Shown here: positions 1,462-21,454 of the stretch, one piece after another
How the letters are laid out: each line of letters begins with the position of its first letter
Numbering within the stretch: position 1 is the stretch's first letter
Assembly: GCA_026706395.1 (NCBI GenBank)
Contig: JAPOYU010000028.1
Span: 1-23,396, forward strand
Length of the DNA stretch: 23,396 bases
DNA from: Chloroflexota bacterium
GTDB taxonomy: Bacteria; Chloroflexota; Anaerolineae; Aggregatilineales; Phototrophicaceae
Direction of reading: 5' to 3'
Translations under genes and position numbers: made by a program
Notes under the pieces: generated by a model
What the model was told of the DNA's origin: nothing
Database searches by the model: none
The model's input: only the letters and a program-made list of their open reading frames with translations

Positions 1462-2622
1462 TCAAGTCGAATACAGGTTCTTGGCTTCGTCAAACAGGCG
1501 CTTGAGCTCAGCCAGCACCTGCCGCCGGTCTCCGCCTTCCATCAGGTACTCGCGAATGGGCGCGCCGCCACGGTCTTGGAAATGGAGATAACCGGGGAAT
1601 CGCGGGCGCAGATAGGCGCGATCCAATGCGGGCAGGGTATTGCGGAAATAGTCATTCGACCGCCGGTTCACTTCCGCATCCAGCCAGGCGCTCCTGTGCC
1701 CGGGCTGGCCACCGTTCTCGAAGAAGAGACTGCGCTGAATCTCCGGGCTGGCGGTGAACATGGCATAGTCCCGCGCGATGTCGAGCGCCCCGCAGCCGGT
1801 TGAAATCGCCAGGCCGGTGCCGCCGAGCGTTGTCTGGCAGCGCCCATGCCCGTCAATATCCACCATATCGTCGAATGTCAGCAGCGCCTCCGAATAGCCG
1901 GCGCGGGAGTAATTGGAATAACCGTAGGCGAAGGGACAATAGACGAAGTCGTCGCGGCGGGAGAGCGCTTCGTAAACCGCGATGGGGTTCCAGCCGAAAA
2001 TATCGCGCGGGCACAGGCTGGCCAACTCGTGCAGCTGATCCAGCGCTTGCAGGCTCATGTCGTCCGATACCGCCCATTCATCGTCAACGAAGGGCACTTC
2101 TCCCTGGGTGGCGCAAAGCATATACCAGTTCATCAAGGTGTCGATGGGGATGCCGGGCATAATCACCCGTCCGCGCCGCGCCAACTCCAGCAGATCGCGC
2201 CAAGTACCCGGCTGCTCCAGGTCGTAGCGCTCCAGCAGATCGGGGCGATAAGATGCGACCGGCGTCGCCGCGTCGATGGCCAGCGCGCACTGACTGCCGC
2301 GGAAGATATAACTGGGATGGGAATGCCCGACCGAATTCTCCGCCTGATCGCGCATGTAGTCTTCCGGGACGATCTCCTGCAGCGGCACGAGCACTTTGCT
2401 ATAGGCGGCGTACCCGGCCCAGGGATGGTCGATCACCAAAAGGTCGTAACGCTCCGCCAGCCCTTGAATCGGCGCATCGGCGAATTCCTGCAGGGAGCGC
2501 TTCTCCCAGGTGATCTCGACATCCGGCCGCATCTCACAGAAGCGCTGCGCCGTCGCCACGACCGAGACGAAACCGCGCGAATGATTCCAGGTGATGCCTC
2601 GCAATTCTGTCTTGGCTGTCAT
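1462..2622 (-). CDS. Solute-binding-protein homologue (SBP family 1) without a signal peptide
   Basis: 386 residues with the general pattern of family-1 solute-binding proteins: an early beta strand with RGITWNHSRGF, a following EKRSLQEFADAP helix, LLVIDHPWAGYA, LVPLQEIVP, a central GTWRDLLELA segment and the late FTASPEIQ region typical of the sugar-binder C-lobe. It starts MTAKTELRGITW, so neither Sec, lipoprotein nor Tat signal is present. Reading upstream in frame meets a TGA a few codons before the ATG, so a signal cannot be recovered by a longer start. A GGGGGCGACGG stretch precedes the ATG. No permease is adjacent. It is divergent from the MaoC-IclR operon and shares its putative operator region. 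It may be a cytoplasmic ligand-binding protein; its exact job is unknown. I recall similar signal-less proteins beside CaiB genes in other bacteria, but this is from memory. Confidence 0.75.
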   Translation of the reverse strand: MTAKTELRGITWNHSRGFVSVVATAQRFCEMRPDVEITWEKRSLQEFADAPIQGLAERYDLLVIDHPWAGYAAYSKVLVPLQEIVPEDYMRDQAENSVGHSHPSYIFRGSQCALAIDAATPVASYRPDLLERYDLEQPGTWRDLLELARRGRVIMPGIPIDTLMNWYMLCATQGEVPFVDDEWAVSDDMSLQALDQLHELASLCPRDIFGWNPIAVYEALSRRDDFVYCPFAYGYSNYSRAGYSEALLTFDDMVDIDGHGRCQTTLGGTGLAISTGCGALDIARDYAMFTASPEIQRSLFFENGGQPGHRSAWLDAEVNRRSNDYFRNTLPALDRAYLRPRFPGYLHFQDRGGAPIREYLMEGGDRRQVLAELKRLFDEAKNLYST

Positions 2623-2754: not shown

Positions 2755-2806
2755 TTTTGCTTGCAAAATCCAATTTTATCTGCAAAATATAGTGAGTGAA
2801 TCACTC
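2755..2806. promoter_or_regulatory. Putative IclR operator pair in the divergent SBP/MaoC intergenic region
   Basis: TTTTGCTTGCAAAA at 2755-2768 is a palindrome with 6-bp arms and a TT centre. A second, weaker copy, TTTTATCTGCAAAA, lies at 2774-2787, 19 bp centre to centre (about two helical turns, same DNA face). The same motif in reverse orientation sits at 6617-6630 upstream of the CoA-transferase gene. A third, unrelated palindrome, GAGTGA-A-TCACTC, is at 2794-2806. TATAGT at 2788-2793 could be a -10 box, but I see no convincing -35 at proper spacing. The IclR gene is second in the operon read rightward, so autoregulation is likely. Confidence 0.55.
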
Positions 2807-2862
2807 CTTGTCAACTCAGCGGCCATATAACACTGGTACGGGACTCCCCTTAGGAAAACACC

Positions 2863-3321
2863 ATGATTAAGACCACCTATTTTGAAGAGTACGAGATTGG
2901 CTCCAGCCGCGAAACCTTCGGCCGGACCATAACCGAAGCCGATATCGTCTTGCACGCCGGGCAAACGGGCGACTTCTTCCCCCACCACATGGACGCTGAA
3001 TGGGTCAAGACGCAGGAGTTCAAGGAGCGCATCGCTCATGGCACGCTGATCCTGAGCATCGGCATTGGTATGACCGCCAACGAGATCAACCCGGTCGCCT
3101 TCTCCTACGGCTATGACCGCGTCCGCTTCATCCGCCCGGTTTTCATCGGCGATACGATCACGGTCAAAGCGACCATCAGCGAAAAGCGCGATTATCCCAA
3201 GCGTGCCGATCATGGCTATGTGATTGAACAAGTCGAGATGTTCAATCAGCATGGGGCAATCGTTCTCGCCTGCCAGCATCTCTATCTCGTACAGCGTAAG
3301 GAACTCGCTCCGGCCGATTAA
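2863..3321 (+). CDS. MaoC-like hydratase/dehydratase (catalytic residues intact)
   Basis: A single hot-dog-fold MaoC domain of 152 residues, the usual size of (R)-specific enoyl-CoA hydratases. The hydratase motif is seen as [10 protein letters not shown], with catalytic Asp37 and His42 (D-x4-H), followed by RIAHGT (H59-G60) at the start of the central helix and [11 protein letters not shown] at the substrate tunnel. It probably adds water to, or removes it from, a short CoA thioester in the cytoplasm. An AGGA lies 9 bases before the ATG. It opens an apparent operon with the IclR gene 40 bases downstream. A second MaoC gene at 7869 is clearly related (shared FSYGYD-(R/K)-(V/L)-RFI and PVFIGDTI) but lacks the catalytic His. 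The physiological acyl-CoA is not known; the neighbours suggest a product of sugar-acid breakdown. Confidence 0.88.
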
Positions 3322-3361
3322 CCCGCTCTTGCCGACCACGGCAGGCTGAAAGCGAACCAAC

Positions 3362-4165
3362 ATGGTCGAAATGAAATCCGCGCCCAATTACAGCGTGCCG
3401 GCTTTGGAGAAAGGCCTGGCGGTGCTTGAGTTGCTGGCGCAGGCTTCCGAGCCGCTCTCGCTGTCCCAAGTGTCCGAATTGACGGCGAACAGCGCCAGCC
3501 AACTCTTCCGCACGATGAACTGCCTGGTGGAAAGCGGCTATGTCAGCAAAGACGAGGCCTCCGGCAAATACATCCTGACGCTCAAGCTCTTCGAGCTCGC
3601 CAGCCGTCACTCGCCGCTTAAACACTTGCTGCGGGTGGCCCATTTGCCGATGCAGGAACTCGCCTGGAACATACGCGAATCCTGCCATATCAGCATCATT
3701 CAACATCGACAGCTGCTCGTGGTCGGTCAAGCGGAAAGCCCGGAAAGGGTGCAGATCACCGTATCTGTCGGCGCCTCCTTCCCGCTCGTATCGACGGTAT
3801 CCGGGCGGCTCCTGCTGGCGGCGCTGGATGAGGGCAGCCTCAGCGCCATCCTGGATGAAGACGGCGACTACCGGCGTATGTCCGGGTCCGAGCGCGATAG
3901 TTTCTGGGAGCGGATAGATGGGATTCGGCGAACCGGCATGTCAACCGCGGTCGATGAATCATTCATCGGCTTGCATGATACCGCTGTTTTGATCGGCAAC
4001 CCGGATATCGGCGTCACCGCAGCGCTCGCGATCACCCAGCTGACCGCCAGCCGGAAGAGCGGCGAAACGCAGCAAGTGATCGACGCCTTGCAGCGCTGCG
4101 CCCATCAGATCAACGAGCGCGCCGGTTTGACGGATTTTACCGAGCAGCCGGTCCCCGCCTATTAG
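3362..4165 (+). CDS. IclR-family transcriptional regulator
   Basis: 267 residues with an N-terminal winged helix-turn-helix (about 13-75: PALEKGLAVLELL, LSLSQVSELT, SQLFRTMNCLVESGYV) and a C-terminal IclR effector domain (about 80-255), including the family signature PLVSTVSGRLLLAAL near 141-155. IclR proteins bind small acids or aromatics and usually act as repressors of nearby catabolic operons, often their own. The gene sits between a hydratase and a dehydrogenase gene. The palindrome TTTTGC-NN-GCAAAA found upstream of both halves of this cluster is a fair candidate for its binding site. An ATG at 3371 is an alternative start. The next gene starts 29 bases after the stop, consistent with cotranscription. 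Confidence 0.9.
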   Translation: MVEMKSAPNYSVPALEKGLAVLELLAQASEPLSLSQVSELTANSASQLFRTMNCLVESGYVSKDEASGKYILTLKLFELASRHSPLKHLLRVAHLPMQELAWNIRESCHISIIQHRQLLVVGQAESPERVQITVSVGASFPLVSTVSGRLLLAALDEGSLSAILDEDGDYRRMSGSERDSFWERIDGIRRTGMSTAVDESFIGLHDTAVLIGNPDIGVTAALAITQLTASRKSGETQQVIDALQRCAHQINERAGLTDFTEQPVPAY

Positions 4166-4194
4166 AATTGCCAATCAATACAGGATGCTGTCAG

Positions 4195-5277
4195 ATGCCA
4201 GACTTTCAATACCGTCAGAGCGCGATACTGCCGGCGCACCCGCTGCCGATAGTGAGCATCGGCTTGGGCGGGATCGTGCATGACGCCCATTATCCCGCTT
4301 ACAAGGTAGCCGGTTTCGATGTGGTCGGCGGCTATGACATTGATGCCGTGCGTGCGTCCATGATGCAGCATAAATTCGGCATCCCGCTGCTTTATGACTC
4401 GTTGGCGGCTGCGATCGAAGGGGCGCCGGCCAAGGCCGTCTTTGATATCGCCGTGCCGGGCGACGCTATCGCCGATATCCTGCGCGAGATACCCGCGGGC
4501 CGCGCCGTTCTCATCCAGAAGCCCATGGGTGAAGATCTGGCTGAAGCGCGGCAAATCCTTGACATCTGCCGCGAACAGGAGCTCGTCGCCGCCATCAACT
4601 TCCAACTGCGCTTCGCCCCTTTCATCATCGCCGCCCGTGATATGATCGAGCAGGGCTTGATCGGCGAGCTTTATGATGTGGAGTTCCGCGTTCAGTGCAA
4701 CACGCCCTGGCATCTCTGGAGCTTCCTCTTCCCCTTGCCCCGCATCGAAATCCTCTACCACAGCATCCATTATGTCGACCTCGTCTGCTCCTTTTGCGGT
4801 ACGCCACAGGGCGTCTACGCCAAGACCCTTAGCCACCCGTCGGCGCCCGACCTGCGCGGAGGCGCTCGTTCGATGATCATCATGGACTACGGCGAGAACC
4901 CACGCGTCAACATCATGACTAACCACAGCCATGCCTACGGACCCGAAAAGCAGCAGTCCTACGTCAAGTTTGAAGGCAGCGAAGGCGCTATTCAAATCCG
5001 CGCCGGTCTCAACATGAATTATCCCGACGGCGTCCCTGACCGCTTCGAGTACATCTTGCTATCGGACGGAGACGCCCCGCAGTGGCAGTCTCTGGAAATC
5101 AATGGGTCATGGTTCCCCGAAGCCTTCATCGGCACGATGGCCAGCCTGATGCGCTACGCCAATGGCGAGACCAGTACCTTGCCGACATCGGTCGAGGATG
5201 CCATTCAGACGATGGCGACGGTGGAAGCCGCTTACGAATCCAGCACAAATGGCGGTACGCCTTTGCCGGCGGTGTGA
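4195..5277 (+). CDS. Gfo/Idh/MocA family NAD(P)-dependent sugar dehydrogenase
   Basis: 360 residues. An N-terminal Rossmann domain carries IVSIGLGGIVHDAHYPAY (G23-x-G25) and an acidic YDID stretch after strand 2 (D48, D50) that hints at NAD preference. The family EKP motif reads QKP (108-110). The C-terminal alpha/beta domain contains HYVDL (H192, D195), the usual catalytic His-x2-Asp. Members oxidise sugars, inositols or sugar derivatives with NAD(P). ATG 4195 is chosen because AGGA lies 9 bases upstream; the longer reading from TTG 4168 adds only nine residues and has no site. It follows the IclR gene closely. With the lactonase at 5653 and the mutarotase at 8398 it suggests aldose to lactone to acid, though the substrate cannot be read from sequence and some family members act on ketosugars or thioesters. 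Confidence 0.85.
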   Translation: MPDFQYRQSAILPAHPLPIVSIGLGGIVHDAHYPAYKVAGFDVVGGYDIDAVRASMMQHKFGIPLLYDSLAAAIEGAPAKAVFDIAVPGDAIADILREIPAGRAVLIQKPMGEDLAEARQILDICREQELVAAINFQLRFAPFIIAARDMIEQGLIGELYDVEFRVQCNTPWHLWSFLFPLPRIEILYHSIHYVDLVCSFCGTPQGVYAKTLSHPSAPDLRGGARSMIIMDYGENPRVNIMTNHSHAYGPEKQQSYVKFEGSEGAIQIRAGLNMNYPDGVPDRFEYILLSDGDAPQWQSLEINGSWFPEAFIGTMASLMRYANGETSTLPTSVEDAIQTMATVEAAYESSTNGGTPLPAV

Positions 5278-5344
5278 GGGGCGAACTTGCCAACCGCATT
5301 CGGGAAAGTTATGATTGAGGTATCGGCGAAAAAGGACTGTCGAT

Positions 5345-5647
5345 ATGCAATTGGACACGACGCTTTCTCTGGATGTGGTAATCGCAATTATCGCCATATT
5401 TGTAGCTGTTTGGCTGCTCAATCGGGACATAGACAGCAAGATCTCTGACTTGCGTAGGGATCTCAAAGCCGACAACACTGACTTGCGCAAAGAACTGAAA
5501 GCAGACATCGTCGAACTGCGCAAGGAACTAAATGCTGTTGAATCGAAAGTCGACGGCGGCAACCAGCGCCTCGCCAGGCTCGAGGGAGTCATCTTGTCGC
5601 GCGAAGGCTTGGTTGACGCAATAGTCGAAACTGGTGCGACTGGCTAG
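5345..5647 (+). CDS. Small membrane protein with hendecad coiled-coil repeats
   Basis: 100 residues. A hydrophobic segment at about 10-26 (VVIAIIAIFVAVWLL) is followed by a charged coiled coil made of three 11-residue units, DLRRDLKADNT, DLRKELKADIV and ELRKELNAVES, then RLARLEGVIL and a short tail. Such 11-residue periodicity gives a right-handed or nearly straight coiled coil. The protein is probably anchored in the inner membrane and oligomeric. AAAGGA sits 8 bases before ATG 5345; the longer TTG 5315 reading lacks a site. I do not recognise a function. It lies 67 bases after the dehydrogenase gene and ends 5 bases from the stop of the opposing lactonase gene. It may be unrelated to the pathway. 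Confidence 0.65.
   Translation: MQLDTTLSLDVVIAIIAIFVAVWLLNRDIDSKISDLRRDLKADNTDLRKELKADIVELRKELNAVESKVDGGNQRLARLEGVILSREGLVDAIVETGATG
5447..5545 (+). repeat. Three in-frame 33-bp tandem repeats
   Basis: Units at 5447-5479, 5480-5512 and 5513-5545 begin GACTTGCG, GACTTGCG and GAACTGCG and encode the three 11-residue coiled-coil units of the small membrane protein. They diverge at synonymous and conservative positions, so they look like an old duplication kept under protein-level selection rather than a recent slippage array. Confidence 0.75.
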
Positions 5648-5652
5648 ATCGC

Positions 5653-6498
5653 CTAGGACCCCAGCCCGTAAAACACGTTGCCCGTTCCACCCAAGATCGC
5701 GTCTCTCTCGTCATCAGAAAGGTCCGCCAGGCATTTGTTCGTCTCCGCCCAGACCTTGGCATAATCCCCCGCCAGCACAGCCACGGGCCAATCACTGCCG
5801 AACATTAAACGATCGGTGCCGAACTGCTCTATTGCATAATCGACCAGCGGCTTGATGTCCTCAAAAGTCCAATTTTCGAAGTCCGGCGTCACTGTGTTTA
5901 AGCCGGAGACCTTGGCATAAACATTTGGGCTTTCCGCCGCCGCCGCCAGTTGCTCCCGCCAAATCGCCCGTTCGTCGTCGCCCAATGGCGGCTTGGCCAG
6001 ATGGTCGACCACCATCTTCAGGTTCGGCACCTTCTCCGCCAAAGTCGGCACATGCTTCAAGTGGTTCGGGAACACCGCGACCACATCAAAGGTCAAGTCG
6101 CGATCGGCCAGGATGGTCAAGCCTTCGATGACCTGCTTCTGTATCACCCAGTCGGGATTCGTCTCTTCGTGAATCAAATGCCGCATGCCCTTGAAATAAG
6201 GGTTCCGCCCGTATTCATCGAGCTTCTTCGCTGTTTCCTCCGGGTCATGAAGCGGCACCCAGCCGACCCCGCCGGCCACCCACTCATAGGCTTCCGCGAT
6301 CGCCAGCATGGAATCGGTATCGGCGTAGGAATCCATCGCCTGCACGATCACCGTCTTGTCGACGCCGGCAGCCGCCAACTGCGGCGCCAGTTCATCAGCG
6401 TCAAAGTCCCGATAAATGGGTCCGTAGGCCGGCACCAGCCAAGGATACGCCACCTCGTCCAGATTCCAAAAATGCTGATGCGTATCAACCTTTAGCAT
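5653..6498 (-). CDS. COG3618 amidohydrolase (L-fuconolactonase/L-rhamnonolactonase-like)
   Basis: 281 residues of a TIM-barrel amidohydrolase of the lactonase branch (L-fuconate, L-rhamnono-1,4-lactone, pyrone-dicarboxylate lactonases). Seen: THQHFW (H7, H9) at strand 1, GMRHLIHEE (R106, H107) at the substrate side, VVDHLAKP (H166), YAKVSGL (K196) and FGSDWPV (D236), all in the expected order. It probably opens a sugar-acid lactone in the cytoplasm. ATG 6498 is chosen because a perfect GGAGG lies 5 bases upstream on its strand; the 6510 TTG reading would place that site inside the gene. It is divergent from the CoA-transferase gene across a region holding the shared palindrome. The RhaM-like mutarotase nearby supports a 6-deoxyhexose substrate, but the exact lactone is inference. 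Confidence 0.85.
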   Translation of the reverse strand: MLKVDTHQHFWNLDEVAYPWLVPAYGPIYRDFDADELAPQLAAAGVDKTVIVQAMDSYADTDSMLAIAEAYEWVAGGVGWVPLHDPEETAKKLDEYGRNPYFKGMRHLIHEETNPDWVIQKQVIEGLTILADRDLTFDVVAVFPNHLKHVPTLAEKVPNLKMVVDHLAKPPLGDDERAIWREQLAAAAESPNVYAKVSGLNTVTPDFENWTFEDIKPLVDYAIEQFGTDRLMFGSDWPVAVLAGDYAKVWAETNKCLADLSDDERDAILGGTGNVFYGLGS

Positions 6499-6570
6499 GG
6501 TCGCCTCCAATAAGCCATATCATTTATCGCGACGCTTGCGTCCACAGCGGTAGCGCGCCGCCGCAATAAT

Positions 6571-6599
6571 TTGACAGAACTGACTTTCCCCACTATATT
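6571..6599 (+). promoter_or_regulatory. Sigma-70-type promoter for the CoA-transferase operon
   Basis: A consensus -35 TTGACA (6571-6576) is followed after 17 bases by TATATT (6594-6599), so transcription should start near 6606. This is the best-looking promoter in the window. The palindromic operator at 6617-6630 lies just past the predicted start, a position suited to repression. Confidence 0.7.
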
Positions 6600-6616
6600 T
6601 TACGGACAAAAAGCGT

Positions 6617-6630
6617 TTTTGCAAGCAAAA
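6617..6630. promoter_or_regulatory. Putative IclR operator, second copy
   Basis: TTTTGCAAGCAAAA is the exact reverse complement of the site at 2755-2768. It overlaps the expected start of the CoA-transferase transcript. Immediately to the left is another symmetrical element, CAAAAA-GCG-TTTTTG (6607-6621). Confidence 0.55.
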
Positions 6631-6710
6631 CAGATCTGAGCTATTTTCGGCATTCCGAATGCACTGCTATCCCAGAAGTCTAGGCAGCCGCCGAGGAGAC
6701 TTGAGACACG

Positions 6711-7859
6711 ATGAGACCACTGGAAGGCTTACTGGTACTGGACTTCAGCATCTTCTTGTCGGGTCCCTCGGCGGCGCTACGTTTGGCCGACCTGGGCGCG
6801 CGCGTCATCAAGGTGGAGCGGCCGGACGGAGGAGACCTGTGCCGCCAGCTCTACATATCAGAACTCGAACTCGATGGCGAAAGCACGCTCTTCCATTCTA
6901 TCAACCGGAACAAGGAGAGCTTCGCCGCCAACTTGAAAGATCCGGTCGATCTCGAACGCGCCAGGGAGCTCATCAAGCAAGCCGATGTGATCGTGCAGAA
7001 CTTCCGTCCCGGCGTTATGACGCGGCTTGGACTCGATTACGAATCCGTCCACGAAATCAATCCCCGCATCGTCTACGGCGAAATCACCGGCTATGGCAAT
7101 GAAGGTCCCTGGGTTTACAAGCCGGGGCAGGACCTGCTGCTGCAGTCGATCTCGGGCCTGGTCTGGCTCAATGGCGATGCTGACCGCCCCCCGACGCCCT
7201 TCGGACTGGCGGTGGTAGATCTCTTCACCGGCGCGCATCTGGTGCAAGGCATTCTCGCCTGTCTGGTCCGCCGTGGCGTCACCGGCGAAGGTGGCCTGGT
7301 GCAAGTCAGCCTGCTCGAGTCCATACTCGATTTCCAATTCGAAGTGCTGACGACTCATCTCAACGATGGCGGCAAACAGCCGCAGCGCAGCACGATCAAT
7401 AACGCCCACGCCTACCTCGCCGCGCCGTATGGCATTTACCAGACGGCCGATGGCTTCCTGGCGCTGGCGATGGGTTCGATCCCTGTCCTCGGGGAGCTGC
7501 TGGATTGCCAACCGCTGCTGCAATTCACCGACTCCGCCACCTGGTTTACCCGACGCGACGAGATCAAGGCGATACTGGTCGATCATCTGAAGACGCAGTC
7601 GACAAATCACTGGCTCGGCATCCTCGAGCCGCAGGATATCTGGTGCGCCGATGTGCTGACCTGGGACCGCCTCATGCAGCACGAGGGCTTCAAGGCGATC
7701 GATATGATCCAGGAAGTCGCGCGCGACGAAGACGTCAAGCTGGATACCACCCGCTGCCCCGTCCGCATCGATGGCGAGATCCTCAAGAGCCACAAAGGCG
7801 CGCCCCGCATCGGCGAAGATACCGAGCGCATCATGTCTGAGTTTGCGATTATGAATTGA
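6711..7859 (+). CDS. CaiB/BaiF (family III) CoA-transferase
   Basis: 382 residues, a usual length for family III transferases, which form interlocked dimers and move CoA between carboxylic acids through an aspartyl-CoA mixed anhydride. Seen: the N-terminal [37 protein letters not shown], then [46 protein letters not shown] and [11 protein letters not shown], where D170 matches the catalytic Asp of formyl-CoA transferase. The start is ATG 6711; GAGGAG lies a rather long 12 bases upstream. The stop is 9 bases from the next start. Transcribed from the strong promoter at 6571, it probably activates an acid of the pathway or recycles CoA. The donor and acceptor are unknown; related enzymes act on succinate, itaconate, mesaconate and carnitine. 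Confidence 0.9.
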
Positions 7860-7868
7860 GGGAACCTC

Positions 7869-8387
7869 ATGTCTAAACCCGAGAACACTCCTGTTGAAAT
7901 GCACGCGGACCTGCCGCTCTTCAACACCGAGAGCTGGATGTACGAAGACTTCAAACTGGGCGCCAAGATCAAGTCGATCCGCCGCACCCTCTCCGAAGGC
8001 GAGTGCATGATCTTCAACGCCATCGTGCTGGATATGCATCCCTACGTCGCCGATGAGATCTTCGCCCGCGACGAAGGCATCTTCGACAAGCGTCTCGTCG
8101 CCGGTTCGATGGTCTTCAGCATCGGCTTGGGCTTGATGGCACATAACAACGTGCATACCTTCAGCTATGGCTACGACAAACTTCGCTTCATCAAGCCGGT
8201 CTTCATCGGCGATACCATCTACACTGTCCGCACTCATCTGAGCAAGGAACCGAAATATGCCGAGATGGGTCTGGTCAAGGTCAGCTACGAGGTCTACAAG
8301 AACGAAGGCGTGCTCGCGTTATACTGCGAGCACCTGCAAACGGTGAAATACCGCTACCCGGAAAACTTCAATATCAATTCTGATTAG
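7869..8387 (+). CDS. MaoC-like protein lacking the canonical catalytic histidine
   Basis: 172 residues: an 18-20 residue N-terminal extension and one MaoC hot-dog domain clearly related to the 2863 protein ([45 protein letters not shown]). At the active site the D-x4-H motif reads [10 protein letters not shown]55 is kept, but the position of the catalytic His is Val60, and the RIAHG segment reads RLVAG (A78 for H). His57 sits nearby but out of register. It may be a non-catalytic partner, as in heteromeric hydratases, or an enzyme with a changed site. It lies 9 bases after the CoA-transferase gene and 10 before the mutarotase gene, so is certainly in one operon. An intact reading frame and good conservation outside the site argue against decay. 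Confidence 0.85.
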
Positions 8388-8397
8388 GAGACAGCAC

Positions 8398-8721
8398 ATG
8401 CAACGCTTTGGACAAGTAATCGGCATACGCCCGGAAACCGCTGACGAGTACATCCGCATTCACGCGGACGTCTGGCCCGGCGTCCTGAAAAAGATCGAAG
8501 AATGCAAAATCCGCAATTACTCGATCTTCCGCTACGGCGATCTGCTCTTCGCCTACATGGAGTACCATGGCGATGATTTTGAGGCCGATATGGCGGCGAT
8601 GGCGGCCGATGAAACCACGCAGAAGTGGTGGGATGTCTGCATGCCCATGCAGAAGCCGGTCGCAGAGCGCGCCGAGGACGAATGGTGGCACAACATCGAA
8701 GAAGTCTTCCACATGGACTAG
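8398..8721 (+). CDS. rhaM: L-rhamnose mutarotase-like protein (RhaM family)
   Basis: 107 residues, close to the size of E. coli RhaM (YiiL). It aligns throughout: Y18-I-R-I-H22-ADVWPGV matches the region of the catalytic His22 of RhaM; NYSIFRYGDLLFAYMEY and TQKWWDVCMPMQ (W77, W78) match the sugar-binding ferredoxin-like fold; VFHMD ends it like VFYLP. The family interconverts anomers of L-rhamnose and, in relatives, L-fucose. AGGAG lies 7 bases before the ATG. Last gene of the CoA-transferase run. It is the strongest clue that a 6-deoxyhexose or similar pyranose is the substrate of this cluster. Gene symbol is by family; the true sugar is not proven. Confidence 0.85.
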   Translation: MQRFGQVIGIRPETADEYIRIHADVWPGVLKKIEECKIRNYSIFRYGDLLFAYMEYHGDDFEADMAAMAADETTQKWWDVCMPMQKPVAERAEDEWWHNIEEVFHMD

Positions 8722-8952: not shown

Positions 8953-9055
8953 ATGCCCACTGCGAAAACGAAGTTGAAAGAAAGGTGAATACTATCGAAT
9001 AGACTCACAGTTTAAGTTCAAAGCTTTGCACAAAATCATTCCAAGGAGATTTCTG

Positions 9056-10957
9056 ATGCACAAGAAATATCGTAGGGTCCTCGTCTCGATCCTTGTCCTG
9101 GTCGCCGTCGTCTTCTTCTCCACCGCGCTGGTCACTGCGCAGGAGCAGACCGAAGTCGGCACGCCCCGAGCCACGACCTTGATCGTCGACCAACTCGATG
9201 GCCGTATCGACAATCCCACACAGACCAACCCCTATCAAGCGGGCACTCGCTTCAACCAGGGCTTGCACCAACTGGCTTACTCCAATATGTGGGAGATCAA
9301 CACCGCCACGGGCGAGCAATTCCCAGGCTTGGCGGCTGAAATGCCGGAGGCGCTCAATGACGATTACACCAGCTTCCGCATTACCTTGCGCGACAACCTG
9401 CGCTGGAGCGATGGCGAGCCCATCACAACCGCCGACATGGCTTTCACCATCGACATGGTTTTGGGCACGCCGGAATTCCCCTATAGAGGCTTCCTCTCGC
9501 AAGTGGTGGACAGCTACGAGATTGTTGACGACTTGACGATGATTCTCAACACCAAACGCTCCGAACCGCGTCTGGGCTATACGCTCGGCGTGCACATTTG
9601 GGGCGATTCTTTCCGTCTGGTGCCCAAGCATATCTGGGAGAACGAAGACCCGGCCACCTTCCAGAATTATCCGCCGGTCGTCAGTGGACCTTACACGCTG
9701 GCGGATGTCGACCCCAACGGCAACTGGTTCCTCTATAACAAACGCGCGGACTGGGAGAATACGGACGTAGGCCAGATCTTCGGCGAACCCGGACCGGAGC
9801 ACGTCCTCTTCCGTTTCTATGGCACGGAAGAGCGCCGCATTATCGCCGGCATCCAAAACCAGCTGGATATCTTCACCGATATCTCGCCGGAAGCCTGGGA
9901 TATCCTGCGCGATGCCAACCCGAACGCCCGCGCCTGGCACGAAAACTTCCCCTGGGCCAACTTCGACGATCCTTGCGAGCGCGGCATCGTCTTCTCCAAC
10001 TCGCAGGAACCCTGGGATAACCAGAATGTCCGCTGGGCGATGGCCCTGGCCACCGATATCAAGAGCGTCGGCCTGGCCACATTCGCCGGCATCCTGCGCG
10101 TATCGCCGCTGGCCGTGCCGCCCGTTCAGGTCATTCACGACGCCTTCCACAAACCCATGCGCGATTGGATGACGGAATACGCCTTCGAAGACGGCTACCA
10201 GCCCTTCGATCCCAATTATGCGGTCGACATCGCCGCGATCCTGGCGGAGCAAGGCGTCGAAGGCTTGCCCGAAGGTGAAGATGCCTTGGTTGATCTCTTC
10301 GGCGTCGGCTGGTGGAAGCACGATCCGGCCAAAGCGACAGAGATGCTGCAAGCCGAAGGCTTCACGCTGCAAGACGGCGCCTGGCACAAGCCCGATGGTT
10401 CGCCTTGGCAGATCACCATTAACTCGCCCTCCAACTTCGAGGTGCAGTCACAACGTCTGGCTTTCGCCGTCGCCGATAACTGGCGCGCCTTCGGCATTGA
10501 CGCGGCAGTGCAGCAGATGGACTCCGGCACCTTCTGGAGCAATTACACCCGCGGCGAGTTTGACGCCGGCTCCTATTGGCCCGGCTGCGGCGCCCTGCCC
10601 GATAGCTGGGATCTGCTGGATGCCTTCTGGCACAAACGCCACATCGTGCCCATTGGCCAGCCCGCGCCCGGCAACGCCATGCGTTACGACAGCGACGCGC
10701 TAAGCGGCATTCTCGATCAGATCGCGCCTCTGCCGAGCGATCATCCGGATACGATCCCGCTGCTGACCGAATTCGAGAAGCAGTTTATCATCGAACGGCC
10801 CTGGCTGCCGATGTTCGGCACCTCGAAATTCGTGCCGGTGATCACGACCTACTGGGACGGCTTGCCCACCGCGGACTACTTCTACGAAGGACCTTGGTGG
10901 TGGTGGTCGCTATTCAAGTACCACATGCCATTCATCCAGCCAAAGTCTGACGGCTAG
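9056..10957 (+). CDS. ABC transporter substrate-binding protein, family 5 (Opp/Dpp type)
   Basis: 633 residues with a Sec signal peptide: basic MHKKYRR, hydrophobic VLVSILVLVAVVFF and a cleavage site near ALVTA-QE (28/29). No lipobox Cys is present, so it is either free or held by other means. Family-5 features: SFRITLRDNLRWSDGEPITTADMAF near the first lobe, PPVVSGPYTL, the PWDNQNVRWAMALATD segment and the late LTEFEKQFIIERPWLPMF. Members bind peptides, opines or oligosaccharides. The C-terminus is very rich in Trp (GPWWWWSLFKYHMPF). ATG 9056 is chosen for AAGGAGA 6 bases upstream; the TTG 9026 reading would bury it. First gene of a five-gene importer operon, followed by a strong hairpin. The GH172 gene at the end suggests a carbohydrate ligand, but that is inference. 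Confidence 0.9.
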   Translation: MHKKYRRVLVSILVLVAVVFFSTALVTAQEQTEVGTPRATTLIVDQLDGRIDNPTQTNPYQAGTRFNQGLHQLAYSNMWEINTATGEQFPGLAAEMPEALNDDYTSFRITLRDNLRWSDGEPITTADMAFTIDMVLGTPEFPYRGFLSQVVDSYEIVDDLTMILNTKRSEPRLGYTLGVHIWGDSFRLVPKHIWENEDPATFQNYPPVVSGPYTLADVDPNGNWFLYNKRADWENTDVGQIFGEPGPEHVLFRFYGTEERRIIAGIQNQLDIFTDISPEAWDILRDANPNARAWHENFPWANFDDPCERGIVFSNSQEPWDNQNVRWAMALATDIKSVGLATFAGILRVSPLAVPPVQVIHDAFHKPMRDWMTEYAFEDGYQPFDPNYAVDIAAILAEQGVEGLPEGEDALVDLFGVGWWKHDPAKATEMLQAEGFTLQDGAWHKPDGSPWQITINSPSNFEVQSQRLAFAVADNWRAFGIDAAVQQMDSGTFWSNYTRGEFDAGSYWPGCGALPDSWDLLDAFWHKRHIVPIGQPAPGNAMRYDSDALSGILDQIAPLPSDHPDTIPLLTEFEKQFIIERPWLPMFGTSKFVPVITTYWDGLPTADYFYEGPWWWWSLFKYHMPFIQPKSDG

Positions 10958-10975
10958 GCTGTAGTGATAGCGTAT

Positions 10976-11011
10976 TGGATTGGGTCTGTTCTTTTGAGTA
11001 GACCCAATCCA
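10976..11011 (+). terminator. Strong intergenic hairpin after the binding-protein gene
   Basis: TGGATTGGGTCT and AGACCCAATCCA form a perfect 12-bp stem with a 12-base loop. No run of T follows, so it is not a classic terminator. It more likely protects the 3' end of the binding-protein message and limits read-through, giving more binding protein than permease, as known for maltose-type operons. Confidence 0.7.
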
Positions 11012-11030
11012 CCTTGCGCGAGACTCATTC

Positions 11031-12029
11031 ATGCAATTCGCGAAATTCGTTGTTACGCGGATCATCGCTTATGTTTTGGTGATCTGGATCGGCATCACCG
11101 TGGTCTTCTTCGTGCCGCGCTTCATGCCGTCCGATCCCGTCGAGTCGATGCTCGGCCGCATCATGACGCGCGGCGCCTATATGGAGGCGGAACAGGTCGA
11201 GGCGATGCGCGCCACCCTGACGCAGGCTTTCGGCCTGGAAGGGACATTAGCAGAGCAGTATTTTGGCTTCTTCCACCGCACCTTTCTCACCCGTGACTTC
11301 GGTCCCTCGCTGTCATTGTTCCCCAAGCCGGTGAACGAGGTGATCGGGCGCGCGCTCCCCTGGACGCTTGGCCTGCTGCTGTCGTCAACCATCATCGCCT
11401 GGATCCTGGGCAACGCCATCGGCCTGCTCGCCGGTTATAAGAGCCGCTGGCTCTCCTCCCGCGCCCTGGAAGTCATCGCCATATTCGTCTATCCCATCCC
11501 CTATTACATCACCGCCCTCATCTTGATCATCTTATTCATCCACATCAATCCGATTTTTCCGCTCTTCTTCTCCATCCGTGGCGACCCGCCCTCTCTCGAA
11601 TTCATCTTCAGCGTCATCTACAACTCGATTCTGCCGGCTTGGTCCATCGTCATCGTCGGTTTCGGCTGGTGGGTGCTGAGCATGAAAGCGCTATCCTCCA
11701 GCATCTCGGAAGAAGACTTCGTCTATTTCGCCAAGCTGAAAGGCGCGGGCGAGGGGCGCATTATGACCGCCTATGTCATGCGCAACGCCATATTGCCTCA
11801 GGTCACCGTGCTGGCGCTGCAAATTGGCGCCATCTTCAACGGCGCGCTGATCACAGAGATCCTCTTCGGTTATCCCGGCTTGGGCACGATCACCTATAAC
11901 GCCGTGCTGCAAGCCGATTACAATCTGCTCATGGGCACGATTTCGATTTCCATCATCGCCGTCGCCTCGTCGACCCTGGTCATCGACCTGCTCTATCCCT
12001 TCTTTGATCCGCGGATCAGGCAGAGGTAG
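11031..12029 (+). CDS. ABC transporter permease, OppB/DppB type
   Basis: 332 residues, typical of the first Opp/Dpp permease. A first membrane helix (RIIAYVLVIWIGITVVFFVPRFMP) is followed by a periplasmic region and then a helical core. The cytoplasmic coupling loop EEDFVYFAKLKGAGEGRIMTAYVMRNAILPQ corresponds to the EAA loop that contacts the ATPases, and ALITEILFGYPGLGTITYNAV is the conserved late segment. The ribosome site is weak (GAG before ATG), fitting lower output than the binding protein. The next permease starts 2 bases after the stop. Confidence 0.92.
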   Translation: MQFAKFVVTRIIAYVLVIWIGITVVFFVPRFMPSDPVESMLGRIMTRGAYMEAEQVEAMRATLTQAFGLEGTLAEQYFGFFHRTFLTRDFGPSLSLFPKPVNEVIGRALPWTLGLLLSSTIIAWILGNAIGLLAGYKSRWLSSRALEVIAIFVYPIPYYITALILIILFIHINPIFPLFFSIRGDPPSLEFIFSVIYNSILPAWSIVIVGFGWWVLSMKALSSSISEEDFVYFAKLKGAGEGRIMTAYVMRNAILPQVTVLALQIGAIFNGALITEILFGYPGLGTITYNAVLQADYNLLMGTISISIIAVASSTLVIDLLYPFFDPRIRQR

Positions 12030-12031
12030 CG

Positions 12032-12865
12032 ATGCGTAGATCTAATCCCAGGCTAAGGATCGGCCTGTTTGTCCTCGCCGCCTTCATCATCCTCGGCGGC
12101 ATCTTGCCCTTCTTCTCGCCGGAAGACCCCCGCTCCTGGATCAGGCACCCGCGCAACCTGCCCCCCAGCACCGAGCATCTCCTGGGCACCACCAATCTGG
12201 GCCAAGATACCTTCTGGCTGCTGTCATACGCGACGCAGAATTCCCTCTTCATTGGCTTGTTTGTCGCCTTCTTCGCCACGCTAATCGGCGTCTTCGCGGG
12301 CTTGGCGGCCGGCTTTCTAGGCGGCGTCCCGGATCGCGTAATCACCCTCTTGGCCGACGTGTTCATCGTCGTCCCCTCCTTGCCCATCCTCATCCTCATG
12401 TCTTCCCTCCTTCAAGGGCGCGCCTCGCTCGTTCTGATCAGCATCATCCTGATCCTCTTCAACTGGCCCTGGCCCGCCCGCCAAATGCGCTCGATCGCCC
12501 TGAGCATGCGCGAACGCCAATTCGTCAACACGGCCCGCTTCTCCGGCTCCAGCACCATCCAAATACTGGCGGAAGAAATCGTGCCCCATATCTTCAGCTG
12601 GGCCATGGCCAACTTCGTCAACACCGTTCTGGTCGCCATCGCCACCGAGTCCGGCCTGGCCGTGATCGGCTTGTCCAGCCTGGAAGAAGCCACCCTCGGC
12701 ACCACAATCTATTGGGCCTTACAGCACCAGGCCCTGCTCGGCCGGCGCTGGTGGTGGATCGGCTCGCCCGTCGTCGCTATCATCCTGCTATTCATCGCCT
12801 TGTTCTTAATCTCTACCGGTATATCGAGCCTGTCGGCCGAGCGGCGGGGGCACGGCGATGCTTAG
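12032..12865 (+). CDS. ABC transporter permease, OppC/DppC type
   Basis: 277 residues. An N-terminal helix (RIGLFVLAAFIILGGILPFF), then EHLLGTTNLGQDTFWLLSYATQNSLFIGL, the family hallmark before the core (usually HWLGTDxxGRD), and the coupling loop ERQFVNTARFSGSSTIQILAEEIVPH. Late ESGLAVIGLSSLEEATLGTTIYWA also matches the family. GAGG 5 bases before ATG 12032 lies inside the end of the previous gene. The stop overlaps the start of the first ATPase gene by 8 bases, indicating translational coupling. Confidence 0.92.
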   Translation: MRRSNPRLRIGLFVLAAFIILGGILPFFSPEDPRSWIRHPRNLPPSTEHLLGTTNLGQDTFWLLSYATQNSLFIGLFVAFFATLIGVFAGLAAGFLGGVPDRVITLLADVFIVVPSLPILILMSSLLQGRASLVLISIILILFNWPWPARQMRSIALSMRERQFVNTARFSGSSTIQILAEEIVPHIFSWAMANFVNTVLVAIATESGLAVIGLSSLEEATLGTTIYWALQHQALLGRRWWWIGSPVVAIILLFIALFLISTGISSLSAERRGHGDA

Positions 12866-13835
12866 GCTGCGAGAATTAAGATGCTACTACGATACGCCCC
12901 GCGGCGTCGTCCAGGCCGTCGACGGCGTCTCCTTCGATATCCGCCCTGATGAAGTGCTCGGCATCGCCGGCGAATCGGGCTGCGGCAAATCCACCTTGCT
13001 CAAGGTCCTCTACGATTACTTGCAGCCGCCGCTGCAAATCGTCTCCGGCACTTATGAAGCCGATTTTCCTGATGGGGACGGCAAGGTCAAAACCATCGGC
13101 CCGGGCGAAATCCGCCAGCATTGGTGGGAATACATCTCATATATCCCCCAAGGCTCTATGAGCGTGCTCAATCCCGTCATCCGCATCGAGAATCAGTTCT
13201 TCGACGCCGTGCCCAAGGGCCACCCCCTCAAAGCGGTGGGCAAAACAGCCATACGCGAACGCGTCGCCGCCTATCTGAAAGAACTGGAGTTGCCGGTCGA
13301 GGTCTTGAAGTCCTACCCCCATCAACTCAGCGGCGGCATGAAGCAGCGGGTCCTCGTGGCGCTCGGCACCTTCCTGCACCCACAGATCGTCCTGGCGGAC
13401 GAGCCGACTACCGCCCTTGATGTCGTCGTGCAAAAGGGCATCCTGCTGATGCTGACTGAACTGCAGCAGCAGATGGAAAACACCCTGGTCGTCGTCTCCC
13501 ATGATATGGGCGTGCATTATCAGATCAGCGACCGCTTGGCCATCATGTACGCCGGCAAGCTCGTGGAATACGGACCCACCGACGCCATCTTCAACAACCC
13601 TTTGCATCCCTATACCGAAATGCTGATTCAGTCTTTGCCCCGCGTCGGCGACCGTGCGCAGCGGGTCGGCATCTCCGGCCGACCGCCCAGCTTGGTTGAC
13701 CCGCCCGCCGGCTGCCGATTCGCCGCCCGCTGCCCCAAAGTGATGGACCATTGCGCCCATCAAGAGCCCGCCCTCCTCCAGATCGAGCCCGAGCACTTCG
13801 TGTCCTGTCACTTGTATGGGGGAGCCGCCTCTTGA
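12858..13835 (+). CDS. ABC transporter ATPase, OppD/DppD type
   Basis: 325 residues with all nucleotide-binding motifs: Walker A GESGCGKST (38-46), signature LSGGMKQR (157-164), Walker B IVLADEP with Glu182, the D-loop ALD, and H-loop His215 in VVSHDMG. The C-terminal Opp/Dpp extension has Cys286, Cys292, Cys299 and Cys317 (C-x5-C-x6-C-x17-C), the pattern that holds a 4Fe-4S cluster in a characterised DppD. It couples ATP use to the two permeases from the cytoplasm. Start ATG 12858 has GGGGG 7 bases upstream. Its TGA overlaps the TTG start of the partner ATPase. Confidence 0.93.
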   Translation: MLRLRELRCYYDTPRGVVQAVDGVSFDIRPDEVLGIAGESGCGKSTLLKVLYDYLQPPLQIVSGTYEADFPDGDGKVKTIGPGEIRQHWWEYISYIPQGSMSVLNPVIRIENQFFDAVPKGHPLKAVGKTAIRERVAAYLKELELPVEVLKSYPHQLSGGMKQRVLVALGTFLHPQIVLADEPTTALDVVVQKGILLMLTELQQQMENTLVVVSHDMGVHYQISDRLAIMYAGKLVEYGPTDAIFNNPLHPYTEMLIQSLPRVGDRAQRVGISGRPPSLVDPPAGCRFAARCPKVMDHCAHQEPALLQIEPEHFVSCHLYGGAAS

Positions 13836-14827
13836 GCCAGAATCTGCTCGAACTGCGTAATGTCAGCAAAGTCTTCCGCATCGGCGGCCTTGTCTTCGGT
13901 ACACGCTTGGTGGCGGTCGACGATGTCAGCCTAAGCTTGCCGGCGGCCGAACCATCGATTCTCAGCATCGTCGGCGAATCCGGCAGCGGCAAGACCACCC
14001 TGGCTCGCATAATCCTAGAATTGGAACACCCGACTTCCGGCGATGTGCTGATTGAAGGACATCCGCTGTTCGAAAAGAGCGGCGCGGGACTGAAGGGCAG
14101 AGACTACTACCGCGCCGTGCAGCCGATCTTTCAGAATCCCTTCGAGGCCTTCAGCGCGCGCAAGCGGGTGGACAAATACCTCTTCGACGCCGCCCTGCGG
14201 CTGAAGATCGCGGCCAGCCGCAAGGAAGCCCGCGAGATCGTCGCCGAAGTCCTGGAATCGGTCGGACTCGATCTGTCCCGCGTCGAAGGCAAATACGCCA
14301 ATCAATTCTCCGGCGGCGAATTGCAGCGGATCTCCGTCGCCCGCGGCCTCATCCCCCGCCCCAAACTCATCGTCGCCGATGAACCGGTCAGCATGATCGA
14401 CGCCTCCCTGCGCATGAATATCGTCAACCTCTTCCTCGAATTGAAAGAGCAGTATAAGGTCTACGTCAGCGATTACATCGGCATCATGTATCGCGGCAGC
14501 GTGGTCGAGTATGGCCCGTCGGAGCAGATCCTCACCGACTCCGCCCATCCCTATACCGAACTGCTGCTTGATTCAGTGCCGACCGTCGACCACAAGTGGG
14601 AACGGCAGGTCGCTCTGCCGGATATCGAGATTAAAGAGTTTCAGGGGGATGCCTGCAAATTCGCCAAACGCTGCAAATATGTCCAACCGATCTGCGAGCG
14701 CACGGTGCCGCCCATGGTCCAGGTGTCAGCGGAACGCCAAGCGCTCTGCTACAAACCGGTCGACTTCGACCCCGAGGCAAGCACGCCGCAGCAAGCGAAC
14801 GAAGCATTGGCCGCAGCCGGGAAATAA
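13832..14827 (+). CDS. ABC transporter ATPase, OppF/DppF type, with the H-loop segment missing
   Basis: 331 residues. Walker A GESGSGKTT (48-56), Q-loop Gln101, signature FSGGELQR (159-166) and Walker B LIVADEP (Glu184) are intact. After VNLFLELKEQYKV (to 210) the chain passes directly to YVSDYIGIMYRGSVVEYG. Relatives have about 13-15 residues here, containing the H-loop His-Asp. That segment is absent, in frame, with the junction near base 14461. The C-terminal C-x5-C-x6-C-x17-C set (275, 281, 288, 306) matches the partner. I chose the TTG at 13832 because GGGGGAG lies 7 bases upstream and the start overlaps the previous stop; the longer reading shadows the previous gene. Either one ATP site of the pair is truly degenerate or the assembly lost about 40 bases. 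Confidence 0.88.
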   Translation: MSQNLLELRNVSKVFRIGGLVFGTRLVAVDDVSLSLPAAEPSILSIVGESGSGKTTLARIILELEHPTSGDVLIEGHPLFEKSGAGLKGRDYYRAVQPIFQNPFEAFSARKRVDKYLFDAALRLKIAASRKEAREIVAEVLESVGLDLSRVEGKYANQFSGGELQRISVARGLIPRPKLIVADEPVSMIDASLRMNIVNLFLELKEQYKVYVSDYIGIMYRGSVVEYGPSEQILTDSAHPYTELLLDSVPTVDHKWERQVALPDIEIKEFQGDACKFAKRCKYVQPICERTVPPMVQVSAERQALCYKPVDFDPEASTPQQANEALAAAGK

Positions 14828-14865
14828 CGCAGGGTCAACCCATCACGAATGTGAAGGATAGCCTA

Positions 14866-19135: not shown

Positions 19136-19165
19136 ACTTGCTACTGGGGGCGGGATGGTTGTGAT

Positions 19166-19361
19166 TTTATCCCCCTCTAAATCTCCCCTCATTGCAATGG
19201 GGGGAGACTTCTTTGTCGCCGGACAGTTGGTCGTACCATACCGACGCGCGGATCCGGCGCATCATTCCAATTGTCGTCTCCGCCAGAAGCGCTCTCCCTC
19301 CCTGATGCTTCGGACGTCTGCCATAGAGATGGCGGGAAAAGGCCGAGGGGAGGGGTAGAAA
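19166..19361. repeat. Family B repeats between binding-protein and permease genes
   Basis: CTCCCCTCATTG / CAATGGGGGGAG (19183-19206) is a near-perfect inverted repeat with one T-G pair. A second, partial copy has GCTCTCCCTCCCTGATGC (19291-19308) and GGGGAGGGGTAGAAA (19347-19361), the latter identical over 15 bases to 22537-22551. That end forms the ribosome site of the following gene. The hairpin is placed where a transport operon often lowers permease output. Confidence 0.6.
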
Positions 19362-21159: not shown

Positions 21160-21178
21160 CGCCACCCCACGCGAAATC

Positions 21179-21253
21179 CGTAGGGGCGGCTCGGTCGTCC
21201 GACTTGTACCACACACAAAAGAATCGGTGGAGAGGCGAGCCTTGGCTCGCCCG
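21179..21253. repeat. Two family A hairpin repeats
   Basis: The first unit (21179-21201) begins CGTAGGGGCGGCTCGG. The second (21234-21253) is a perfect GGCGAGCC, loop TT, GGCTCGCC hairpin with the same stem as 17246-17258. No promoter or gene is obvious in the rest of the 21160-21454 gap. Confidence 0.6.
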
Positions 21254-21454
21254 TAATCAGCGCATCCGGAGGTGATTTCTCAGGCTTATTCCTTGACCTG
21301 GAGCAGCCGCCGCAACGGCAATCTGAACCCAGGCAGCATCGTCCCGCCGCTCAATGCATCCTCCAGCCCGAGCGTCTCGCGCCGCGCCGAACACGCAAGC
21401 TTGCGGGTCAATGACGAACGCGATATAGTACGGGCAATAGTGGTGCGAGAGATC

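Follow-up and report, generated by a model that had tools for sequence, protein, structure and literature searches.

The DNA analysed here (the window) is a stretch of 23,396 nucleotides from a Chloroflexota bacterium (assembly GCA_026706395.1, contig JAPOYU010000028.1, positions 1-23,396 of the forward strand), in which genes of sugar-oxidation families stand together with a class III coenzyme A (CoA)-transferase and two MaoC-type proteins. A preliminary description of this DNA had listed seven genes at positions 2863-8721 (MaoC, IclR, Gfo/Idh, lactonase, CoA-transferase, MaoC and RhaM), and Pfam matches at the same coordinates agree with all of them; the left limit given there did not hold, as the unit reaches on to a gene at 1462-2622 on the minus strand for SBP1, a solute-binding-fold protein devoid of a signal peptide. 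The features of the locus are as follows.

1462..2622, minus strand: SBP1, apparently cytoplasmic sugar-binding-fold protein (class II solute-binding fold, SBP_bac_1, no signal peptide)
2755..2768: operator TTTTGC-TT-GCAAAA, downstream of the SBP1 promoter (one of only two window matches, kept in relatives)
2786..2814, minus strand: SBP1 promoter TTGACA-N17-TATATT (11/12 consensus positions)
2863..3321, plus strand: MaoC1, a protein of the R-specific hydratase/dehydratase fold that retains the catalytic Asp and His (PF01575, 85 bits)
3362..4165, plus strand: IclR-family regulator (PF01614 and PF09339; IclR 87.6 bits)
4168..5277, plus strand: Gfo/Idh/MocA dehydrogenase, presumed sugar 1-dehydrogenase (PF01408, 34.2 bits; PF02894, 33.6 bits)
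5653..6510, minus strand: COG3618-type lactonase, Amidohydro_2 (PF04909, 163.8 bits; L-fucono-1,5-lactonase model NF052480, 201 bits, below its cut-off of 400)
6571..6599, plus strand: CoA-transferase promoter TTGACA-N17-TATATT (11/12 consensus positions)
6617..6630: operator TTTTGC-AA-GCAAAA, downstream of the CoA-transferase promoter (one of only two window matches)
6711..7859, plus strand: class III CoA-transferase (PF02515, 321.7 bits, residues 4-371, full length)
7869..8387, plus strand: MaoC2, a hydratase-fold protein in which Val takes the place of the catalytic His and an additional His lies two residues past the Asp (MaoC, 45.8 bits)
8398..8721, plus strand: RhaM-family 6-deoxysugar mutarotase (PF05336, 110.8 bits; TIGR02625, 48.5 bits, below its cut-off of 99.6)

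Shared operators and missing enzymes of the cluster

The two best sigma-70-type promoters between positions 2500 and 8800 face SBP1 and the CoA-transferase, each with a spacer of 17 bases. In the whole 23.4-kb window there are just two copies of the palindrome TTTTGC-NN-GCAAAA, one in each of the two divergent promoter regions and in each case just downstream of the promoter, giving SBP1 and the CoA-transferase one promoter-operator layout; by chance, 0.06 occurrences would be expected in the window (up to one mismatch allowed). When the matching intergenic regions of the window and of 12 Chloroflexota loci were compared, 20 of the 22 contained the exact 14-mer, and in three of the related loci (L012, L015 and L024) an extra copy precedes the binding-protein gene of a sugar ATP-binding cassette (ABC) transporter. 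The operators join SBP1, the CoA-transferase and, in these three loci, a sugar ABC transporter gene, which we count in favour of the reading developed below. Because the palindrome occurs in the window only at the SBP1 and CoA-transferase promoters and is kept in relatives, the single regulator suggested in the preliminary description is supported. Placement of the operator after the -10 box would suit a repressor, and we infer that the IclR protein is the one that binds it.

Pfam scans of 20 open reading frames (ORFs) of the window, a set to which those at 19271-20278 and from position 22698 onward do not belong, revealed no sugar-acid dehydratase, KDG-type kinase or aldolase, and nine dehydratase proteins used as tblastn queries gave no match in the window; the absence of these enzymes from the cluster, noted previously, was thereby borne out. 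Among the same scanned ORFs, neither a 4-dehydrogenase plus diketo-acid hydrolase nor an aldolase was found.

The mutarotase and the COG3618 lactonase (nearest Protein Data Bank (PDB) chain 4dlf, 125 bits) matched their Pfam families with the NCBIfam equivalog cut-offs unreached, and for Gfo/Idh no NCBIfam model came near its cut-off (best, 48 of 355 bits). Since the lactonase, RhaM and Gfo/Idh all stay below these cut-offs, their substrates are not fixed by sequence. A sugar link is given by relatives of GH29 fucosidase in six related loci (L003, L029, L034, L041, L049 and L074) and by a GH78 gene, by record annotation, in L002; the probable role of the cluster is the breakdown of 6-deoxy sugars, for example L-fucose or L-rhamnose.

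Recurrence of the gene set in six phyla

A scan of species genomes with SBP1 gave at least 592 confirmed places, the best 80 of which are loci L007-L086. Our counts cover 100 loci, namely the window, L007-L086 and L111-L129, and refer to genes within 8 kb of SBP1 unless stated otherwise; L001-L006, L087 and L088 (plasmid records), the 4-kb loci L089-L110, the gene loci L130-L133 and the extensions L134-L139 stand outside them. All loci were chosen by SBP1, which is hence present by construction; presence of a gene means a tblastn match at E 1e-8 over 40% of the query, and loci end at contig or window ends.

A CoA-transferase lies within 2 kb of SBP1 in 79 of the 100 loci and within 8 kb in 92. 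MaoC1 was found in 63 loci, MaoC2 in 23 and a crotonase in 27, with at least one of the three in 91; in some loci the crotonase replaces MaoC beside the same SBP1 and CoA-transferases. Relatives of Gfo/Idh and of IclR were each found in 64 loci (for Gfo/Idh, the window included), the lactonase in 27 and RhaM in 20. According to record titles, the related clusters belong to Chloroflexota, Bacillota, Bacteroidota, Pseudomonadota, Planctomycetota and Acidobacteriota. Because the same neighbourhood recurs in loci of six phyla, the gene set is more than chance, and co-occurrence in other genomes, the check proposed in the preliminary description, gave a positive answer. Judged by SBP1, the nearest relative among the matches listed is a Chloroflexi metagenome-assembled genome (L007, 91%). 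In a sample of the phylum of Klebsiella, SBP1 was found in 18 of 398 genomes (E 1e-40), and in the phylum of Alicyclobacillus in 1 of 299, the one being the centre genome itself; the enteric SBP1-CoA-transferase DNA, used as a query, matched none of the E. coli genomes searched.

The module of SBP1, CoA-transferase and hydratase sits in three kinds of frame. In the first, frame A, assigned to 6-deoxyhexoses, the enteric locus L058 (Klebsiella spallanzanii) combines a lactaldehyde reductase (NF007911, 665.7 bits, cut-off 537), MaoC1, RhaM, a DHDPS-family aldolase, the lactonase, Gfo/Idh, a RhaT-family transporter, SBP1 and two CoA-transferases, and Bacteroidota loci such as L063 combine RhaT, the module, Gfo/Idh, a zinc-dependent alcohol dehydrogenase (Zn-ADH) and a KduD-like SDR (327 bits, cut-off 339), to which L003 adds a beta-propeller lactonase and the GH29 fucosidase. 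SDR plus FAH genes occur in L087, L088, L120, L122 and L123; the L087 FAH protein reaches 425 of the 500 bits required for 2,4-didehydro-3-deoxy-L-rhamnonate hydrolase, and the SDR and FAH of L122 and L123 are relatives of those of L087 (56-68% identity). DHDPS-family aldolases were found in L047, L058 and L069, and RraA-like aldolase-family genes in L022, L023 and L047 (by Pfam) and in L015 and L050 (by clustering with those).

Frame B, a marine set, consists of SBP1, two CoA-transferases, a crotonase and an aldehyde dehydrogenase; some of its loci have GH2, agarase-like and sulfatase genes in the vicinity. The closest PDB entries to the aldehyde dehydrogenase are 3k2w and 6j75, the latter labelled aldehyde dehydrogenase A, which we take to be a 3,6-anhydro-L-galactose dehydrogenase; frame B (L032, L036, L040, L073 and other loci of this type) may serve 3,6-anhydrogalactose. 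Frame C, typified by L125 with variants in L118 and L124, holds an aldose epimerase, an SDR, a CoA-transferase, SBP1, a crotonase and an FAH-family protein, the last matched by no NCBIfam model at E 1e-20. The SDR, tried as an indicator of a pentose route, reached 161 of the 400 bits required for D-xylose 1-dehydrogenase. L088 carries as its second cluster a crotonase-type frame C that lacks SBP1. In L026 (Alicyclobacillus fastidiosus) a gene for an AMP-binding CoA ligase lies near the module at 6542-8110, a possible primer of the CoA thioester. Across these frames, the common slot of the module would be the sugar-acid dehydration step.

Active sites and the binding protein

The CoA-transferase keeps Asp170, which we take to be the catalytic Asp equivalent to Asp169 of formyl-CoA transferase, in 138 of 139 sequences, the remaining one being an incomplete row. 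At the position of the GNxH loop of YfdE-type enzymes the window protein has NNAH. For CaiB, Asp169 is named as a conserved residue in PMC5592240. Many relatives carry tandem CoA-transferases (54 pairs), and a single clade of 52 sequences contains the first member in 49 of the pairs; the window enzyme is a single copy outside this clade. Two different class III subunits also make up the benzylsuccinate CoA-transferase BbsEF (PDB 9fn0), as the tandem proteins of relatives might do; that pairing is putative, and BbsEF differs in its unrelated substrate and from the window in that only one CoA-transferase is present there.

In MaoC1, the Asp and His of the motif GD-[FY]-[FY]-P-H-H, presumably the hydratase 2 motif with its catalytic residues, are kept in 57 of 57 sequences. 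The corresponding motif of MaoC2, D-x-H-P-Y-V, was found in all 138 sequences compared (the window, 17 from loci and 120 listed of 2162 homologues), with the Asp kept, Val in place of His and a His at the motif's Asn position. As MaoC2 lacks the catalytic His, the two proteins may form a catalytic/non-catalytic pair, a heterodimer. HadAB-type split dehydratases are similar in that one hot-dog subunit keeps the catalytic residues and the other lacks the His; they differ in acting on acyl-ACP (acyl carrier protein) substrates, and the MaoC1-MaoC2 pairing is putative. MaoC2 is present in 22 of 33 loci with one transferase versus 3 of 59 with two, kinship being ignored; before duplicates were removed (L004 and L087 are the same place, as are L005 and L088) the former count was 23 of 35.

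A confident predicted model and PDB comparison assign SBP1 to the class II solute-binding fold of the sugar-binding type. A simple hydropathy mark of a signal peptide was found in 0 of 87 SBP1-type proteins versus 5 of 6 controls (three incomplete controls were left out), and SBP1 appears to stay inside the cell. The interpretation of SBP1 as an ordinary ABC solute-binding protein was rejected because it has no signal peptide and, in the window, no permease beside its gene. In most loci its neighbour is the CoA-transferase instead of a permease, in which, as in its missing signal peptide, it differs from the sulfoquinovose-binding protein SmoF and other SBP_bac_1 proteins; SBP1 is a co-regulated partner that probably binds or presents the sugar acid. 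A second binding-fold protein, SBP2 (family f5), adjoins the CoA-transferases in 39 loci, mostly of Bacteroidota, has a signal-like start in 0 of 39 and shares 17-19% identity with the window SBP1 in the two cases compared. Loci L009 and L018 carry close SBP1 relatives (79-86%), the rest of the cluster not being found in the available sequence, and L127, L128 and L129 carry a more distant homologue several kb from a CoA-transferase, a crotonase, an SDR and an rbs-type ABC set.

Elsewhere in the window, a 110-residue ORF between the Gfo/Idh and lactonase genes (5315-5647) has no Pfam match and, among the loci compared, relatives only in L015 and L017 (51-64%). Positions 9026-15978, with no operator copy, encode an ABC transporter of the oligopeptide type (a binding protein, two permeases and two ATPases) and then a DUF2961 protein; positions 17909-22375, with no operator in front, encode another ABC transporter, this one of sugar type and with a binding protein that bears a signal, together with a PhyH-family protein.

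Proposed dehydration on a CoA thioester and its alternatives

The reading that we favour, and to which we give an even chance, is a CoA-dependent, non-phosphorylating route for L-fucose, L-rhamnose or a stereoisomeric 6-deoxyhexose in which the CoA-transferase and MaoC or crotonase would dehydrate the sugar acid as its thioester. RhaM would equilibrate the anomers, Gfo/Idh would oxidise C1 to give the lactone and the COG3618 lactonase would open it to the free acid. The class III CoA-transferase would then convert the acid into a CoA thioester with an acidic C2 proton, as happens with carnitine and CaiB/CaiD, and MaoC1, with MaoC2 as its likely non-catalytic partner, would remove water across C2-C3, tautomerisation yielding a 2-keto-3-deoxy acyl-CoA. 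By handing the CoA to the next sugar acid, the transferase would free the 2-keto-3-deoxy acid for aldolase cleavage or for oxidation and hydrolysis, by enzymes that for the window must lie elsewhere; IclR would control the gene set. L-Fucose and L-rhamnose are 3R, which fits the R-specific MaoC, and D-xylose and L-arabinose are 3S, which fits crotonase; this match of C3 stereochemistry to the MaoC and crotonase frames is only suggestive. More tentatively, and in our view possible rather than probable, the class III CoA-transferase, MaoC or crotonase and SBP1 might constitute a general CoA-dependent sugar-acid dehydratase replacing the metal-dependent enolase-superfamily and IlvD-type enzymes, with a reach over 6-deoxyhexoses, perhaps pentoses and perhaps 3,6-anhydrogalactose, and with SBP1 as a dedicated subunit or substrate carrier.

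Dehydratases were sought in the loci with the nine query proteins only. A candidate downstream enzyme lies within 8 kb of SBP1 in 20 loci, and 16 of these have no enolase-superfamily, UxaA or IlvD match within that distance; with stricter markers (DHDPS, FAH and FAHm) the count is five of eight (L058, L069, L118, L124 and L125 without such a match; L047, L122 and L123 with one). In seven sets with both front-end and back-end enzymes, those of the enteric L058 and L069, the Bacteroidota L050, L052, L063 and L071 and the type C locus L125, the module is the only visible candidate for the dehydratase step.

A number of observations weigh against the CoA-dependent 6-deoxyhexose route. Twelve of the 20 downstream loci rest on Zn-ADH alone, in one case at 26% identity (L086). 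Dehydratase-type genes lie within 8 kb in 16 of the 100 loci, and loci ending at a contig or window edge (for example L112-L114, L116 and L117) may hide more. In L087 (Pararhizobium), one strand carries genes for an annotated L-fuconate dehydratase, FAH-family protein, SDR, MaoC, Gfo/Idh, RhaM, a mandelate-racemase family protein and a sugar ABC transporter, with SBP1, CoA-transferase and MaoC2 near this operon; L088 (Martelella) has the same kinds of gene, the annotated L-fuconate dehydratase included. A UxaA-type dehydratase lies between MaoC1 and the SDR in L122 and L123 and is present in L119 with its extension L138, and enolase-superfamily genes adjoin L010, L011, L016 and L026. In the genomes at large, a FucD query found an enolase-superfamily relative in 30 of 30 searched (E 0.001), so that a dehydratase acting from elsewhere is possible. 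The exact operator was not found in L009, L017-L020 and L038; no CoA-transferase was found in 8 of the 100 loci (L008, L009, L017, L018, L019, L038, L046 and L086) and no hydratase in 9, some of them short pieces, while L009, L017, L018 and L086 span 13 to 21 kb. The loop His of the CoA-transferase is not invariant (62 of 87 sequences; 42 of 52 in clade a), and the role of SBP1 is not accounted for by the proposed chemistry.

Only one of the FucD matches in the 30 genomes, that of genome G021, was FucD-like throughout (41% over nearly full length, in a frame with one stop); PF00920 was matched in 14 of 14 genomes, eight of them with a single copy. In L047 (Citrobacter), the UxaA-type dehydratase lies about 6-8 kb away, beyond regulators. 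The proposition that there is no dehydratase anywhere was rejected, given the dehydratase-type genes at L087, L088, L119, L122, L123 and L026, and because of such genes the module is not simply the only dehydratase in the first five of these loci. The preliminary description had placed a CoA route where dehydratase and aldolase are missing: its positive half is upheld by the frequency of CoA-transferase and of MaoC or crotonase in loci with sugar genes, and its negative half gives way in some relatives, which possess dehydratase or aldolase genes. Co-regulated genes of these kinds elsewhere were regarded there as grounds for abandoning the idea; this applies in part, as such genes lie in or beside the clusters of relatives (dehydratase-type in L087, L088, L119, L122, L123, L010, L011, L016 and L026; aldolase-family in L047, L058 and L069).

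These neighbouring dehydratases invite two other explanations. An ordinary dehydratase might handle the main sugar acid and the CoA module a second, rarer one feeding the same 2-keto-3-deoxy acid, such as a different stereoisomer or an acid substituted at O3 (3-O-methyl, 3-O-sulfo and 3,6-anhydro forms are examples), an explanation that we regard as unlikely but deserving of weight. It draws on the annotated L-fuconate or UxaA-type dehydratases in one operon with the module, on a second K. spallanzanii set about 12 kb from the L058 module (L134; tblastn matches to an enolase-superfamily protein at 34%, a COG3618 lactonase at 30% and RhaM at 46%) and on the marine aldehyde dehydrogenase closest to 3k2w and 6j75 with its agarase-like neighbours, where the leaving group would be an ether; however, by itself it leaves unexplained the 16 of 20 downstream-enzyme loci (5 of 8 with stricter markers) that have no dehydratase match nearby. 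Alternatively, dehydration and rehydration on the thioester might epimerise a sugar acid at C2 or C3 for an ordinary dehydratase. Although this would account for the same-operon dehydratases of L087, L088, L122 and L123 and for two MaoC proteins with different active sites, the enteric L058 and L069 and the Bacteroidota sets have no nearby dehydratase match to take the epimer, and we consider it the least probable of the alternatives.

It is improbable, if slightly less so than epimerisation, that the substrate of the CoA-transferase and MaoC is a different acid, set free from the glycan or glycoside where it served as an acyl decoration (a hydroxy acid, for instance), the genes then being united by joint substrates and not by one pathway. 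Short acids are the best-known substrates of class III CoA-transferases and MaoC hydratases, the closest PDB chains to the CoA-transferase are formyl-CoA and succinate-hydroxymethylglutarate transferases, and in the Roseibium locus L001 an aromatic-type cluster beyond a MarR gene includes genes for a thiolase and an AMP-binding protein. However, among the 28 of 40 gene families (five or more loci) that received profile labels, crotonase is the only one of beta-oxidation type, with no CoA-lyase or thiolase; the interchange of crotonase and MaoC beside the same partners and the sugar-binding fold of SBP1 also speak against it. Degradation of itaconate or mesaconate, which the preliminary description had named as a possible contrary outcome, was rejected on NCBIfam scores far below cut-off (NF041294, 183 of 700 bits; RipB/Ich NF038241, 67 of 340 bits) and because the scanned window ORFs include no CoA-lyase; the mesaconate/itaconate system is alike in pairing a class III CoA-transferase with a MaoC-family hydratase (PMC5592240).

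The CoA-dependent 6-deoxyhexose route can be set beside described systems. Carnitine CaiB/CaiD likewise combines a class III CoA-transferase and a hydratase on a 3-hydroxy acid as its CoA thioester; it is not orthologous (NF002914, 89 bits, cut-off 413) and has another substrate class and other partners. The non-phosphorylating L-fucose/L-rhamnose pathway (FucM, FucA, FucB, FucC, then FucF-FucG or FucH), as given in PMC11199699, leads through mutarotase, dehydrogenase, lactonase and dehydratase to L-KDF, after which either an aldolase acts or a 4-dehydrogenase together with one more enzyme. PMC10444878 cites a title on a medium-chain (MDR) KDR dehydrogenase. At the level of protein family, the mutarotase, the presumed 1-dehydrogenase and the lactonase (of COG3618 according to a cited title) are shared with the window, and the 4-dehydrogenase plus FAH-family hydrolase, or the aldolase, with relatives; in contrast, that pathway, so far as outlined there, has no place for a CoA-transferase, MaoC or a cytoplasmic binding protein, and in the window no dehydratase was found. 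Among the titles and abstract openings listed from the open-licence literature of PubMed Central, a scope that stops short of subscription papers, none describes the module, which agrees with the earlier statement that no described sugar route of such composition is known. The parts are known families; it is their combination, and a sugar-binding-fold protein inside the cell, that is not described in the searchable open-licence literature.

If the proposed route is true, CoA-thioester chemistry would enter sugar catabolism at a step assigned to metal-dependent dehydratases in described routes, and a function would be given to many proteins now named only solute-binding proteins, CoA-transferases or MaoC proteins, the SBP1 marker being widespread in species genomes. 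Because module loci lie alongside fucosidase, rhamnosidase-annotated, sulfatase and agarase-like genes, the module may bear on the consumption of sugars from algal and plant polysaccharides.

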